From: Nannochloropsis oceanica
Taxonomy: Eukaryota; Sar; Eustigmatophyceae; Eustigmatales; Monodopsidaceae
Direction of reading: 5' to 3'
DNA length: 55,000 nt
Assembly: GCA_004519485.1 (NCBI GenBank)
Contig: CP038136.1
Location: forward strand, 22,501 to 77,500
Below are positions 3,037 to 49,744 of the stretch, piece by piece. Position 1 is the stretch's first letter, and every line of letters begins with the position of its first letter. The notes below the pieces were generated by a model that ran no database searches, had not been told where the DNA came from, and was given only the letters and a program-made list of their open reading frames with translations. The position numbers and the translations under genes are program-made.

Positions 3037-3639
3037 TCAAACCTTTGGTTTTTGACTATATGAATTATAGAATGTTGTATAACTCTTCTTAGAAAGTCCT
3101 TTGTTTGATGCAATTTTATAATCTAAGTTAATTAGAATAATAGACATGAAATGAATATTAACTAACTTGTTAATATTTTTATAAGTTTTACAAAGTTGCA
3201 TTAACAAGTTAGTTAAATTTTTTCTTAATAAAAGAAAAATTAATGAGCTTCGTAAATGGAAAATTTTTAAAAGAGCTTTTAAGTATATTTTTAAAAAGAC
3301 ATAATTTTCAACTAAGAGTTTTTTGTATCTTACATATTTTAATAATAGATATATCAAGCTAAGAATACTTAATGCCTTTAATTTACTAAAAACTTTAAAG
3401 TTAGTGTAGTAATTTTCTGGGTATAAAGAGTAGATTTTTCTTTGAAAATCGTATCTAATCATTTGTTTATTCTCAATTAGATCAACAAAGATTTGATCTA
3501 AAAATTTTTCGTGTATGAATCTGTTATCATAAAGATTAAATGACAATAATACTCGAGAACTTTTTAGTAAGTTTTCTTGTGGTTTATTTGATAATGTTTG
3601 TAATTTTGCGGTACTAGTTAACTGGTATTGTTGCTCCAT
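3037..3639 (-). CDS. Hypothetical membrane-associated protein (200 residues)
   Basis: I do not recognise this protein. It begins at an ATG, has no internal stops, and lies 73 bp upstream of orf457 on the same strand, divergent from secA. The first 90 residues are mixed and polar (NRFIHEKFLDQIF, MIRYDFQRKIYSLYPENYY). Residues about 90-175 are Leu/Ile/Lys-rich with two or three possible hydrophobic helices (LSILSLIYLLLKYV, then SLIFLLLRKNLTNLLM, then FMSIILINL). Composition matches the basic first half of orf457, so the two may be a co-expressed pair or a once-continuous gene. A lineage-specific plastid gene is the safest reading. Confidence 0.6.
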   Translation of the reverse strand: MEQQYQLTSTAKLQTLSNKPQENLLKSSRVLLSFNLYDNRFIHEKFLDQIFVDLIENKQMIRYDFQRKIYSLYPENYYTNFKVFSKLKALSILSLIYLLLKYVRYKKLLVENYVFLKIYLKALLKIFHLRSSLIFLLLRKNLTNLLMQLCKTYKNINKLVNIHFMSIILINLDYKIASNKGLSKKSYTTFYNSYSQKPKV

Positions 3640-13724: not shown

Positions 13725-14879
13725 ATGAACTACAGAGTCTACTTTGAACTTGATGAAGATGAGTTATATGAGTTAAATAGATTTACTCGTGATTTAACAA
13801 TGTCCGCTGAACTAGGATTATTAGACCCATTGATTGGACGCGAACGTGAATTAGATCGAATGGTTAGAATTTTATGTCGTAGGACAAAAAATAATCCTGT
13901 AATTATTGGTGAGCCTGGTGTAGGAAAAACAGCATTAGTTGAAGGGTTAGCACAAAAGATTGCTAATCAAGAAGTCCCAAGGCAACTTTTAGACGCTAGT
14001 GTTGTAACAGTCGATCTTGGTGCTTTAGTTGCCGGAACACGTTATCGTGGCGAATTTGAAGAAAGACTTCAACTTTTAATCGAACATGCGCAGGATGTGC
14101 CGGACACAATTTTGTTTATTGATGAAATTCATACATTAATTGGTGCTGGATCTGCAGAAGGTACAATGGATGCTGCAAATATGTTAAAACCGGTTTTATC
14201 TAGAGGTAAATTTAGATGTATTGGTGCAACAACAACTGACGAATACAAAAAATATATCGAACGTGATCCTGCTCTAGAAAGACGTTTTCAACCTATTTTA
14301 GTAGAACCACCAAGCCCTGCATCGACTGTTCGAATTTTATCGCGTGTTAGAAAATCATTTGAATCATTTCATAATGTTGTCATTTCAAATGAAGCTTTAG
14401 TTGAAGCTGTTGAGCTTTCTGAACGTTATATTGCAGATCGATTTTTACCTGATAAAGCAATTGATGTTATCGATGAAGCTTGTACCTTAGTGGCAATGAA
14501 AGCAGTTAAGCATCCACCAGGTATTGGTCCTTTTTATGAAAGGCTAGCAGCTATGCAAGAGGAAAAGGAGGAAATGCTAAGGATGAATGATTATTATGGT
14601 GCAGCAAGAATAAATGAGCAAGAAACTCGTTTACGTACTGCTATTGATCACTATCAAAGATTTTATTCTGGTTTACCCGATGACGATAAATGGGTTTTAA
14701 AAAATCAAAAAGAATTTGTACAACGTTTTATTCCATCGATGGAAAACCCACAAAGTTTAGAAGAAGTTTTACATGAATTAGAATGGCTCATTAAATCAGA
14801 AACAGATAGTAAAACATCAAGTGTCAAAGAAGAAATATATACACAAAATGAAGACCTTGATTTTGACAATAATATCTAA
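13725..14879 (+). CDS. clpC: ClpC reduced to its first AAA+ module and middle domain
   Basis: ClpC is the Hsp100 unfoldase feeding the plastid Clp protease. Full-length ClpC (about 820 residues) has an N domain, AAA1, a middle domain and AAA2. This 384-residue product has only the first AAA module and middle region: LTMSAELGLLDPLIGRERE leads in, Walker A is GEPGVGKT (62-69), Walker B FIDEIH (131-136), arginine finger ERDPALERRF (179-188), and a UVR-like stretch QEEKEEMLRMNDYYGAAR near 275. It ends with an acidic tail, not with AAA2. A GGAAAA-type RBS precedes the ATG. Split clpC genes are known in ochrophyte plastids; the other half is not in this window. Confidence 0.93.
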   Translation: MNYRVYFELDEDELYELNRFTRDLTMSAELGLLDPLIGRERELDRMVRILCRRTKNNPVIIGEPGVGKTALVEGLAQKIANQEVPRQLLDASVVTVDLGALVAGTRYRGEFEERLQLLIEHAQDVPDTILFIDEIHTLIGAGSAEGTMDAANMLKPVLSRGKFRCIGATTTDEYKKYIERDPALERRFQPILVEPPSPASTVRILSRVRKSFESFHNVVISNEALVEAVELSERYIADRFLPDKAIDVIDEACTLVAMKAVKHPPGIGPFYERLAAMQEEKEEMLRMNDYYGAARINEQETRLRTAIDHYQRFYSGLPDDDKWVLKNQKEFVQRFIPSMENPQSLEEVLHELEWLIKSETDSKTSSVKEEIYTQNEDLDFDNNI

Positions 14880-17579: not shown

Positions 17580-18278
17580 TTAATTGTAAAAATTCTCGAT
17601 TAATTGCGATCCTAATAAACGATTCGTTGTAAAATTAAATACAACAGAGTCTACTCGACAAGTATAACCACGAACTATATTTTTGCTCGTTACTTGCTTT
17701 TTAATTAAGAAAGCATGATCTGACGGATTCAAACGTTCTGGATTTTCATCCGTAAAATCTAAAACATCTGAAAGTTTATCTAGTAATTTATCACTATTAA
17801 AACTTGATGTCCAATCATTTACCGTACAAATCTCATCAACGATTCGAAGTCTATGTAAGCGACAAATACGATCAAATACAGATGGAAATACCGAGATTAA
17901 TGAAGAAACGATTCTATTTCGAAAACTTTCATAAAACCATTTCCCAAATACTAAATCAAATCCGTGATTAAATGATGTTTTCCAAGTTGGTAATAATACC
18001 CTCCAGGTAACAAAATCCTCAGAATCTTTACGACGTGCAGCAATTTTATAACGTATGTTATTTTTAAAAGATCTACGTACTAAACTTGAATTTAAGTTAG
18101 TTTTAGCTTGTTTTGGTATCACTTCTGTAGAAGGAAACGTTTGTGCTGTATGATACGATAATGTTTTAAACCAAACCCCAATATGATACATATCATATGC
18201 GTTTGGTACAGCTTGAAATGCTTTTACAAAATTTTGAATCAAATTTTGGCTTAATTGGACCTTGTCAAGACATCCCAT
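17580..18278 (-). CDS. atpD: ATP synthase CF1 delta subunit, divergent
   Basis: The delta subunit joins CF1 to the peripheral stalk. Identification rests on position (between atpF and atpA, as in all red-lineage atp operons) and on a C-terminal NIVRGYTCRVDSVVFNFT-NRLLGSQL segment that fits the delta C-terminus (GG-x-V-x-D-x-S-x-L). The 232-residue product is longer than the usual 180-190, with an extra basic stretch around residues 55-95 (NSSLVRRSFKNNIRYKIAARRK). The rest is poorly conserved, as delta often is. I chose the ATG at 18278; a TTG start three codons upstream is possible. Spacer to atpF is 30 bp. Confidence 0.8.
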   Translation of the reverse strand: MGCLDKVQLSQNLIQNFVKAFQAVPNAYDMYHIGVWFKTLSYHTAQTFPSTEVIPKQAKTNLNSSLVRRSFKNNIRYKIAARRKDSEDFVTWRVLLPTWKTSFNHGFDLVFGKWFYESFRNRIVSSLISVFPSVFDRICRLHRLRIVDEICTVNDWTSSFNSDKLLDKLSDVLDFTDENPERLNPSDHAFLIKKQVTSKNIVRGYTCRVDSVVFNFTTNRLLGSQLIENFYN

Positions 18279-18308
18279 ACGATTCAATAATGTTTCTTTA
18301 ATTTATTA

Positions 18309-48092: not shown

Positions 48093-48136
48093 CTTATAGT
48101 TAAATAATAATATATTAATTTACAAGGAGGTAACAA

Positions 48137-49744
48137 GTGAAAATAGATAACCCTCATGCTATTATACCCTCAGATTCTGTTCAATTGTGTTTAGAAAATG
48201 GCATTAAAAGAATTGAATTACTACTTGGAGAGACTTATGGCCCTTCTGGTAAAAATATCATTTTTGATAAAAAAGATATATCAAACCCCGAGCTGTTTAA
48301 AAACGGTTCAAAAATAATTCGCAATCTTCGTACTAATAATGAGATTGAAAATTTAGTTTATCTTATGCTAGAAGATTCTTTTCAAAAAATTAATAGTGTT
48401 AGTGGGGATGGGACCAAAACGTTTTTCTTAATTTTATCTTATCTAGTATTAAATGGTTTTAAGAATATAATCCAAAATACCTATTCACTCGAAACAAAAA
48501 TTGGAATAACGAAAACTCTCGATTATGCGCTAAAAATTTTAAATGATAAAAGTTTACCAATTACGACAAAAAAATTTTGGGATAAAGTTTTAGAAAGATA
48601 TATACCACAGGAAGATAACCTTGTAGAAATATTTCGTGAAGCATTTAAAAAAATTGGTAAGACGGGACAGTTAAAAATAAAAACGGAAACTGGCAAAAAA
48701 AGTAGCTTAGTTTTGGAAAGGGGTATGCAAATAAGTAGAGGTTATTTTTCGCCTTACTTTATGACTGATACGAAGAAAATGACAGTTCAGTTTGAGAATC
48801 CTTATATTCTTGTCAGTTTACAAAAGATTACATTAGAAGAGGATTATCTTATTCGTTTATTAGAACCTATAATTTATGAAAAAAAACCACTCGTAATAGT
48901 GAGCGCGGATATAGATGAGCATGCATTAGCAACATTAATTTTAAACAAGATCAACGGAATACTAGATCTAGCTTATATCAAAATACCTCAAACATTTTTG
49001 TATGACAAAACAGTTTTAGAAGATTTAGCTTTATATACTAACGCAAAATTAATAACCTCTTCAAGAGATTGGAAGTCAATAAAAAAGTCTAATTTGGGTC
49101 AAGTTAACAAAATACTACTGACAAAAACAAAAAGTATTTTTTGGGCAAAATCTGGCGCGCAGAATGAACTAATAGAGAAAAGATGCCAAGATTTAAAACA
49201 GCAGATACTTTTCAGTGATTCTGATTATGAGAATGAAAAACGTGAAGATAGAAGAAGAAATTTTACAGGTGCAAATGCCATTATCGAGATAGGAGGAATA
49301 ACCGATCTTGAAACTTCTGATTTACGCGCACGAACTGAAATAGGTTTAGTAGGCGCGCAAGCTTGTCTTTATGAAGGGGTTTTACCTGGTGGTGGGTTAA
49401 GCTTTCTTCAATTAACTGAAGAACTTGAAAACTGGGCAAGAAGTAACTTGCACGGTAATTCTATTAGCGGAAGTAAGTTGGTGATTAATTCATTAATAAA
49501 ACCAATTCAAAAATTAATGGAACAACAAATTAATAAGAATACTTTAATTCCTCAATCTTTGAGGAAACTCGAGAAAATTGGGGAAATTCAAGATCTTTGC
49601 TCATCTTATGATATTAAGCAAAATAAAATAAAAAATATTGTAGATTCGGGAATTTTAGATTCCTTTAAGAGCATCCGTATAGGCCTTCAAACTGCAGCTT
49701 CTTTAACTTATTCAATTTTATCCATCGCAAACATCATAATTTAA
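48137..49744 (+). CDS. groEL: Divergent GroEL/Cpn60 chaperonin, hydrolysis residues apparently lost
   Basis: GroEL-type chaperonins form ATP-driven rings that fold proteins such as RuBisCO. The 535-residue product aligns end to end with bacterial GroEL except for the missing GGM tail. Kept: LGETYGPSGKN (29-39), Asp91 of GDGT, RGYFSPYF (201-208), HALATLILNKING, PGGG (417-420) and GILD (505-508). Changed: TKDG becomes FKNG (Asp52 of E. coli GroEL is Asn56) and ARVED becomes ARTEI (Asp398 is Ile402), plus Thr90 to Lys94. Asp52 and Asp398 are needed for hydrolysis. The start is GTG with AAGGAGG 6 bp upstream. May be a non-cycling chaperonin-like subunit. Confidence 0.9.
   Translation: MKIDNPHAIIPSDSVQLCLENGIKRIELLLGETYGPSGKNIIFDKKDISNPELFKNGSKIIRNLRTNNEIENLVYLMLEDSFQKINSVSGDGTKTFFLILSYLVLNGFKNIIQNTYSLETKIGITKTLDYALKILNDKSLPITTKKFWDKVLERYIPQEDNLVEIFREAFKKIGKTGQLKIKTETGKKSSLVLERGMQISRGYFSPYFMTDTKKMTVQFENPYILVSLQKITLEEDYLIRLLEPIIYEKKPLVIVSADIDEHALATLILNKINGILDLAYIKIPQTFLYDKTVLEDLALYTNAKLITSSRDWKSIKKSNLGQVNKILLTKTKSIFWAKSGAQNELIEKRCQDLKQQILFSDSDYENEKREDRRRNFTGANAIIEIGGITDLETSDLRARTEIGLVGAQACLYEGVLPGGGLSFLQLTEELENWARSNLHGNSISGSKLVINSLIKPIQKLMEQQINKNTLIPQSLRKLEKIGEIQDLCSSYDIKQNKIKNIVDSGILDSFKSIRIGLQTAASLTYSILSIANIII

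Follow-up and report, generated by a model that had tools for sequence, protein, structure and literature searches.

The plastid groEL gene of Nannochloropsis oceanica encodes a group I chaperonin in which both aspartates of the GroEL catalytic pair are replaced, and the loss of one of them, Asp398, extends to all sampled members of its clade. The explanation that we favour, and to which we give about an even chance, is that this GroEL1-type protein is a selected, ATPase-dead plastid subunit acting as a non-cycling partner of nuclear-encoded Cpn60. The stretch of DNA analysed, hereafter the window, is 55,000 nucleotides long and lies on a contig of 117,556 bp.

Gene structure and residues of the ATP site

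Plastid groEL occupies positions 48137..49744 of the forward (+) strand, downstream of tRNA-Gln, and was identified by translation, PF00118 and alignment as an ATPase-site-degenerate group I chaperonin of 535 amino acids. The frame starts with GTG; as had been stated in an earlier note made from the sequence alone, it is uninterrupted over 535 codons. The ribosome site that this note called ideal is an 8-base Shine-Dalgarno sequence, AAGGAGGT (48124..48131, +), located 5 nt ahead of the GTG start, and is the longest anti-Shine-Dalgarno match among 38 window genes picked and labelled by eye. The protein scores 113.2 bits against PF00118 (Cpn60_TCP1; gathering cut-off 34.3), with residues 29-534 covered, and 309.2 bits against the GroEL equivalog model TIGR02348, below the curated cut-off of 582.1. 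Its identity to E. coli GroEL is 26% in the alignment. The chain ends in ...ILSIANIII and has no Gly-Met-rich C-terminal tail, a tail that is also missing in the three ordinary GroEL rows compared. A three-domain chaperonin fold is predicted by the AlphaFold model (pLDDT 83, full chaperonin fold), which best matches nucleotide-bound intermediates (TM 0.80, against 0.58 for apo 1oel). A diatom control model (pLDDT 86) gives the same order, with TM-scores of 0.88 for nucleotide-bound and 0.76 for apo structures, so these scores say nothing on conformational state and the attempt to read a state from the model was dropped.

Residues were called from a MAFFT alignment against E. coli GroEL from NC_000913, and the codons, all on the + strand, were rechecked. 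The catalytic aspartates Asp52 and Asp398 are replaced by Asn56 (48302..48304) and Ile402 (49340..49342), and Thr90, which we take to help hold a K+ ion in GroEL, is replaced by Lys94 (48416..48418). These three replacements had been proposed in the earlier note and are borne out by both alignment and codons; no alignment puts Asp at either catalytic site of the window protein. The key columns lie between kept, gap-free flanks (K-x-G at GroEL 51-53, and R395 and E409-G410 at equal spacing), and the losses are therefore not alignment artefacts. Outside the catalytic pair, the hinge residue Gly375 is Ala379 (49271..49273) and Glu257, the substrate-to-ATPase sensor, is His262. Retained residues include Asp87, presumably the Mg ligand, as Asp91 (48407..48409), and Asp495, presumably a ribose contact, as Asp508 (49658..49660), together with the GP and GDGT loops and PGGG at 417-420, where E. 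coli GroEL has AGGG. In the apical domain, Y199, Y203 and F204 of the substrate/GroES site are kept as Tyr203, Tyr207 and Phe208 (stretch 48743..48760), L237 as L242 and L259 as L264. All eight apical substrate/GroES positions compared are hydrophobic (Y203, Y207, F208, I239, L242, L264, I268, L269). The earlier note was thus correct in listing Asp87, PGGG, Asp495 and the apical Tyr/Phe residues as kept. Its wider claim that the substrate and nucleotide surfaces survive stands for the substrate face and only in part for the nucleotide pocket, where L31 has become Tyr34 (48236..48238), V54 Ser58 (48308..48310), I150 Arg154, S151 Tyr155 and A480 Ile493; like those at the hinge and at Glu257, these changes had not been mentioned in the earlier note.

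Work on Hsp60 ascribes the deprotonation of the attacking water to the aspartate dyad (PMC12557358), and another study reports for GroEL D398A normal ATP binding, 3% ATPase and continued binding of GroES (PMC3326522). Taken together, these data make the loss of hydrolysis very likely, and by analogy with them we are strongly inclined to regard the window GroEL as a protein that would not hydrolyse ATP. Nucleotide binding is a separate matter, and its retention appears evenly balanced: against the retained loops stands a nucleotide pocket reshaped by Lys94, Tyr34, Arg154 and Tyr155, and the changes at Y34, K94, R154, Y155 and I493 could abolish binding.

Spread and timing of the loss

The clade comprises 58 rows, namely the window row, 54 rows from the search with the window protein (P0002-P0055) and three from the profile search (P0245-P0247). 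P0001 and P0002 are identical in sequence, and several clade rows are fragments. Named matches to window proteins belong to Nannochloropsis, Microchloropsis and other Eustigmatophyceae, while the deep rows P0052, P0053, P0055 and P0245-P0247 are assigned to eustigmatophytes solely by their grouping with named rows. The 158 other rows (P0056-P0121 and P0248-P0339) include, where named, diatoms, other algae and one bacterium. All rows are the best listed of 835 matches in the window-protein search and 6,809 in the profile search.

Asp398 is missing in 58 of the 58 clade rows among these matches, its place being taken by I (34), L (7), T (6), K (4), N (4), M, R or A, and Gly375 is likewise missing in all 58. 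Three rows (P0041, P0042 and P0054) of the 53 with a residue still have Asp52, Glu257 persists in 9/58, and the Thr90 column is Lys in 48/55 rows with a residue. Asp87, by contrast with these losses, is kept in 55/55 and Asp495 in 54/57 rows with a residue. The GDGTT loop is altered and carries a one-residue insertion in the deep members P0053 and P0055, which indicates that in some lineages the degeneration of the site has gone further.

The GroEL1-type plastid GroELs of diatoms, raphidophytes and red algae share with the window GroEL their descent in the tree, compartment, domain layout and model fold. One diatom copy has 31% identity to the window GroEL, and the identity between diatom and raphidophyte is 71%. 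These other GroELs differ in the critical positions: among the matches listed, Asp398 and Gly375 are present in 158/158 other rows, the named diatom, raphidophyte and red algal ones included, and Asp52 and Asp87 in 157/157, with one gap. For the nuclear C12 Cpn60 described below, the best 120 of 7,995 matches all carry both Asp52 and Asp398 as well.

Phylogenetic analysis included 45 of the 58 clade rows and 38 others, with fragments and near-copies left out and columns 52, 90 and 398 removed. The clade stands on a single branch (SH-aLRT 100), whose stem measures 1.83 changes per site by a quick method; the branches are long, and the exact attachment point of the clade is unsure. It falls inside a 76-row group that does not include the nuclear P0122/P0124 (SH-aLRT 100, then 95, by the quick method and with long branches), and the window GroEL does not group with the nuclear plastid Cpn60 (GroEL2-type). 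On this tree, one change is needed for Asp398, one for Gly375, four for Asp52 and five for Thr90. The simplest history is thus that the ancestor of the sampled clade had already lost Asp398 and the hinge Gly375, with Asp52 being lost or regained piecemeal. No chrysophyte, pinguiophyte or chromerid was recognised among the named rows, so the loss could predate the eustigmatophytes.

Constraint on the plastid protein

Constraint was measured at the protein level and complemented with published Ka/Ks text. Exactly 535 amino acids are found in 39/58 clade rows, though the within-clade tree totals 15.2 changes per site. With a nonsense:missense ratio of 0.077 for groEL and about 8 thousand replacements in the clade tree, several hundred stops would be expected from such change if the gene were unconstrained. 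This argument is weak by itself because the database has open frames only; for the same reason, the fact that no broken groEL copies were seen among the predicted proteins comes from a database hardly able to show them.

The pattern among sites is the stronger argument. In a 46-row core of the clade, Lys94 is present in 46/46 rows, and Tyr34 and Ser58 each in 44/44 with a residue. The pocket sites, taken as a set, are steadier than the remainder of the protein (0.72 bits of entropy on average, against 1.22, p=0.0013), and the Asp398 column stands at the 86th entropy percentile. That this column drifts while the new pocket residues are invariant implies that the spot was freed once the acid was gone and the surrounding pocket was not. 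Mean entropies by domain in the clade are 1.04 for the apical, 1.25 for the equatorial and 1.29 for the intermediate domain (apical below equatorial, p=0.006). In other GroELs the corresponding values are 1.24, 1.20 and 1.10 (p=0.75), and in nuclear Cpn60s the apical and equatorial values are 0.72 and 0.89, a non-significant difference (p=0.086), the intermediate domain being lowest at 0.60. Positions that elsewhere are constant to 95% or more survive in the core in 16/27 cases in the apical domain and in 20/82 of the others (p=0.0017). The apical, substrate- and GroES-binding domain has become the most conserved part of the protein in this clade.

Passages of a comparison of 110 plastid genes in seven Nannochloropsis strains give Ka/Ks values mostly <0.09 with a maximum of 0.098 for psbK, and groEL is not among the exceptions named there (PMC3750441). 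We infer from this text that groEL is one of the 110 genes and has a Ka/Ks under 0.098. Scans of viral_contigs and genome_contigs revealed no eustigmatophyte relatives for codon comparison; the 13 and 8 loci found, respectively, have 23-34% identity to the first sequence of the profile, and the titled ones are bacterial.

The gene thus looks constrained rather than decaying, and the site pattern speaks strongly for a function under selection in the clade GroEL. The earlier note had suggested a selected, non-cycling subunit and not simple decay. The selected part of that suggestion gains from the site-specific constraint; the non-cycling part is what we infer from the sequence.

Nuclear chaperonins and possible roles

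Partners were searched for in the same genome (29.26 Mb, 32 contigs). Four group I Cpn60-like loci were found besides the plastid one, along with other PF00118 loci that presumably encode the cytosolic CCT. The chain of the C15 locus ends in a Gly-Met tail, a mitochondrial hallmark, and its product looks mitochondrial. The C12, C11 and C7 products look like plastid-type Cpn60: C12 and C11 cluster together in the tree, and 7/7 stretches of C7 with a match fit C12 best. All three retain Asp52, Asp87, Asp398 and Asp495, so the active nuclear-encoded Cpn60 with both aspartates that the earlier note had envisaged is found in three loci. The signal-peptide-like leaders of C12 and C11 end in AFLPP and GFLQPP, motifs of a type known from ochrophyte plastid proteins. 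The leader of the annotated N. oceanica nuclear Cpn60 (P0133) is the same as that of the matching exon in the genome of the window. C7 is split by introns and its targeting is less clear than that of C12 and C11. The C12 gene is arranged head to head with a gene of two Cpn10 stretches, the first of them split over exons, whose AFLLSS leader and two stretches point to a Cpn20. This Cpn60 and Cpn20 pair (L024, G000:C12:596500-603500) resembles a divergent nuclear groESL, and L025 (G000:C11:989000-993500) and L023 (G000:C7:839500-844500) are further diverged plastid-type Cpn60s with the catalytic Asp kept. A nuclear copy of an ordinary GroEL1-type gene was not found in the contigs of the genome. 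Transfer of a GroEL1-type gene to the nucleus was rejected as a candidate explanation, the nuclear matches being the Gly-Met-tailed mitochondrial-looking gene and the Cpn60-type genes. Nuclear Cpn60s with all catalytic aspartates and a two-domain Cpn10-family gene mean that active partners exist.

Since the gene is kept across the group despite the lost acids, its product probably works without an ATP cycle of its own, beside the nuclear versions. Asp398 would have been lost a single time, in the ancestor shared by the sampled clade, and Asp52 mostly lost too, after which selection would have kept the plastid GroEL as a non-hydrolysing subunit. Its intact apical face should still bind unfolded proteins and the co-chaperonin, and the backbone of the equatorial phosphate loops would be kept with no turnover of ATP. 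It would most likely act together with the three nuclear plastid-type Cpn60s, which have the catalytic pair, as a subunit that does not cycle itself and holds clients or sets the timing, with release driven by ATP hydrolysis in the neighbouring nuclear Cpn60. Mixing of the two proteins is a little less probable than an even chance would make it. At the salt-bridge positions D83, R268 and E257 the GroEL residue has mostly gone, a possible point against co-assembly with ordinary subunits. Should mixed rings form, they would show that subunits dedicated to a non-cycling role can arise in the evolution of chaperonin rings.

The main rival of the partner reading is a self-assembled, ATP-independent holdase that would form its own ring or a smaller oligomer, take up unfolded proteins through its apical face and pass them on, and would not mix with nuclear Cpn60. 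We consider it possible though rather unlikely. Such a protein would accord with the kept apical face and the reversed order of conservation among domains, with the separate nuclear chaperonin system, and with the long stem and the fixed changed positions R36, T516 and T517, which we take to lie near the subunit interface; in a holdase, however, the GP and GDGT loops and Asp495 need not have stayed so constant, unless for the fold. A bolder version of the partner reading, which seems unlikely to us, is a permanently pre-armed subunit, in which Lys94 would place a built-in positive charge at the K+ position of Thr90, the hydrolysis pair is gone, and the protein, loaded with nucleotide or mimicking it, would serve in mixed plastid rings with nuclear Cpn60 to hold clients or set a fixed timing. 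Such a protein would amount to a pseudo-chaperonin encoded in an organelle and fixed over an algal class, a natural D52A/D398A trap.

Hydrolysis by a rearranged site, for example with Glu401 beside the lost Asp398 or with other acids, is very unlikely. Asp87, present in every clade row with a residue, and Glu397, present in 47/58 clade rows, would allow for it, but the window protein has neither member of the dyad, the column of Asp398 drifts, 11/58 clade rows have Q or N in place of Glu397, and it is the dyad that is described for Hsp60 as acting on the attacking water. A role outside chaperonin function, as a monomeric scaffold or moonlighting protein, has a parallel in MKKS, which according to passages of PMC2846930 is free at centrosomes and chaperonin-like outside rings, but it is highly improbable given that the 46-row core shows no variation at Y203, F204 and L237 and keeps L259 in 45/46. 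Slow decay of a dispensable gene on its way out, with nuclear Cpn60 doing the work, is now disfavoured and scarcely credible: the very long stem and the outright loss of plastid groEL in colourless chrysophytes and Leucomyxa (passages of PMC7511666 and PMC11528492, respectively) would suit it, but length is kept in 58 predicted proteins, albeit from open frames only, and the sharp site-specific constraint, the published Ka/Ks and the best ribosome site of 38 genes all speak against it.

Close counterparts of the window GroEL are the engineered E. coli GroEL mutants D398A and D52A/D398A, in which the same catalytic residues are removed. The loss in the clade differs from these in being natural, fixed over the sampled clade and accompanied by further changes in the pocket and hinge. 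The second mutation of the ATP football structure 3WVL is, as we assume, D398A, and BBS12 and MKKS are, we likewise assume, of group II type. The 3WVL structure derives from a GroEL double mutant that is printed as D52A/D358A in a table of PMC5941174. BBS12 and MKKS, as described in passages of PMC2846930, combine the chaperonin fold with a degenerate ATP-hydrolysis motif, as does the window GroEL; they are vertebrate proteins in which GDGT itself is changed, whereas the window GroEL keeps it. Chlamydial GroEL2 and GroEL3, which occur beside a GroEL1, are paralogues of group I whose regions for ATP binding and hydrolysis are altered (PMC1892554). These are bacterial duplicates, in contrast to the window copy, which is the only GroEL1-type gene found in its genome and which scores 97.8 and 135.8 bits against the chlamydial models NF038370 and NF038369, below their cut-off of 600. 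BBS12/MKKS and chlamydial GroEL2/3 are looser precedents for degenerate ATP sites. We know of no organelle-encoded chaperonin with a degenerate ATP site that is fixed over an algal class, and no description of catalytic-Asp loss in eustigmatophyte plastid GroEL was recognised in the titles, abstract starts and passages of the open-access literature. Two Nannochloropsis organelle papers name groEL once and twice, in a table of genes and in the name of a spacer (PMC3999925, PMC3750441). Zauner et al. (2006; PMC1550267) stated that oxygenic phototrophs always have the two types of GroEL together and asked for what purpose. One GroEL type that lacks hydrolysis residues and yet is kept, in transformable algae, makes the purpose of the second type testable apart from ATP cycling.

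Other features of the window were also noted. Two frames of 457 and 200 amino acids on the - strand (1590-2963 and 3037-3639) lie in an AT-rich stretch and had no identity recognised by eye. A frame of 235 amino acids (17580-18287, -) stands where, by gene order, atpD usually lies in the ATP synthase cluster and is apparently diverged. A modified AtpD is discussed in PMC3999925, which also reports that ClpC of Nannochloropsis is divided between separate frames; in the window, clpC is present as a piece of 384 amino acids (13725-14879, +).
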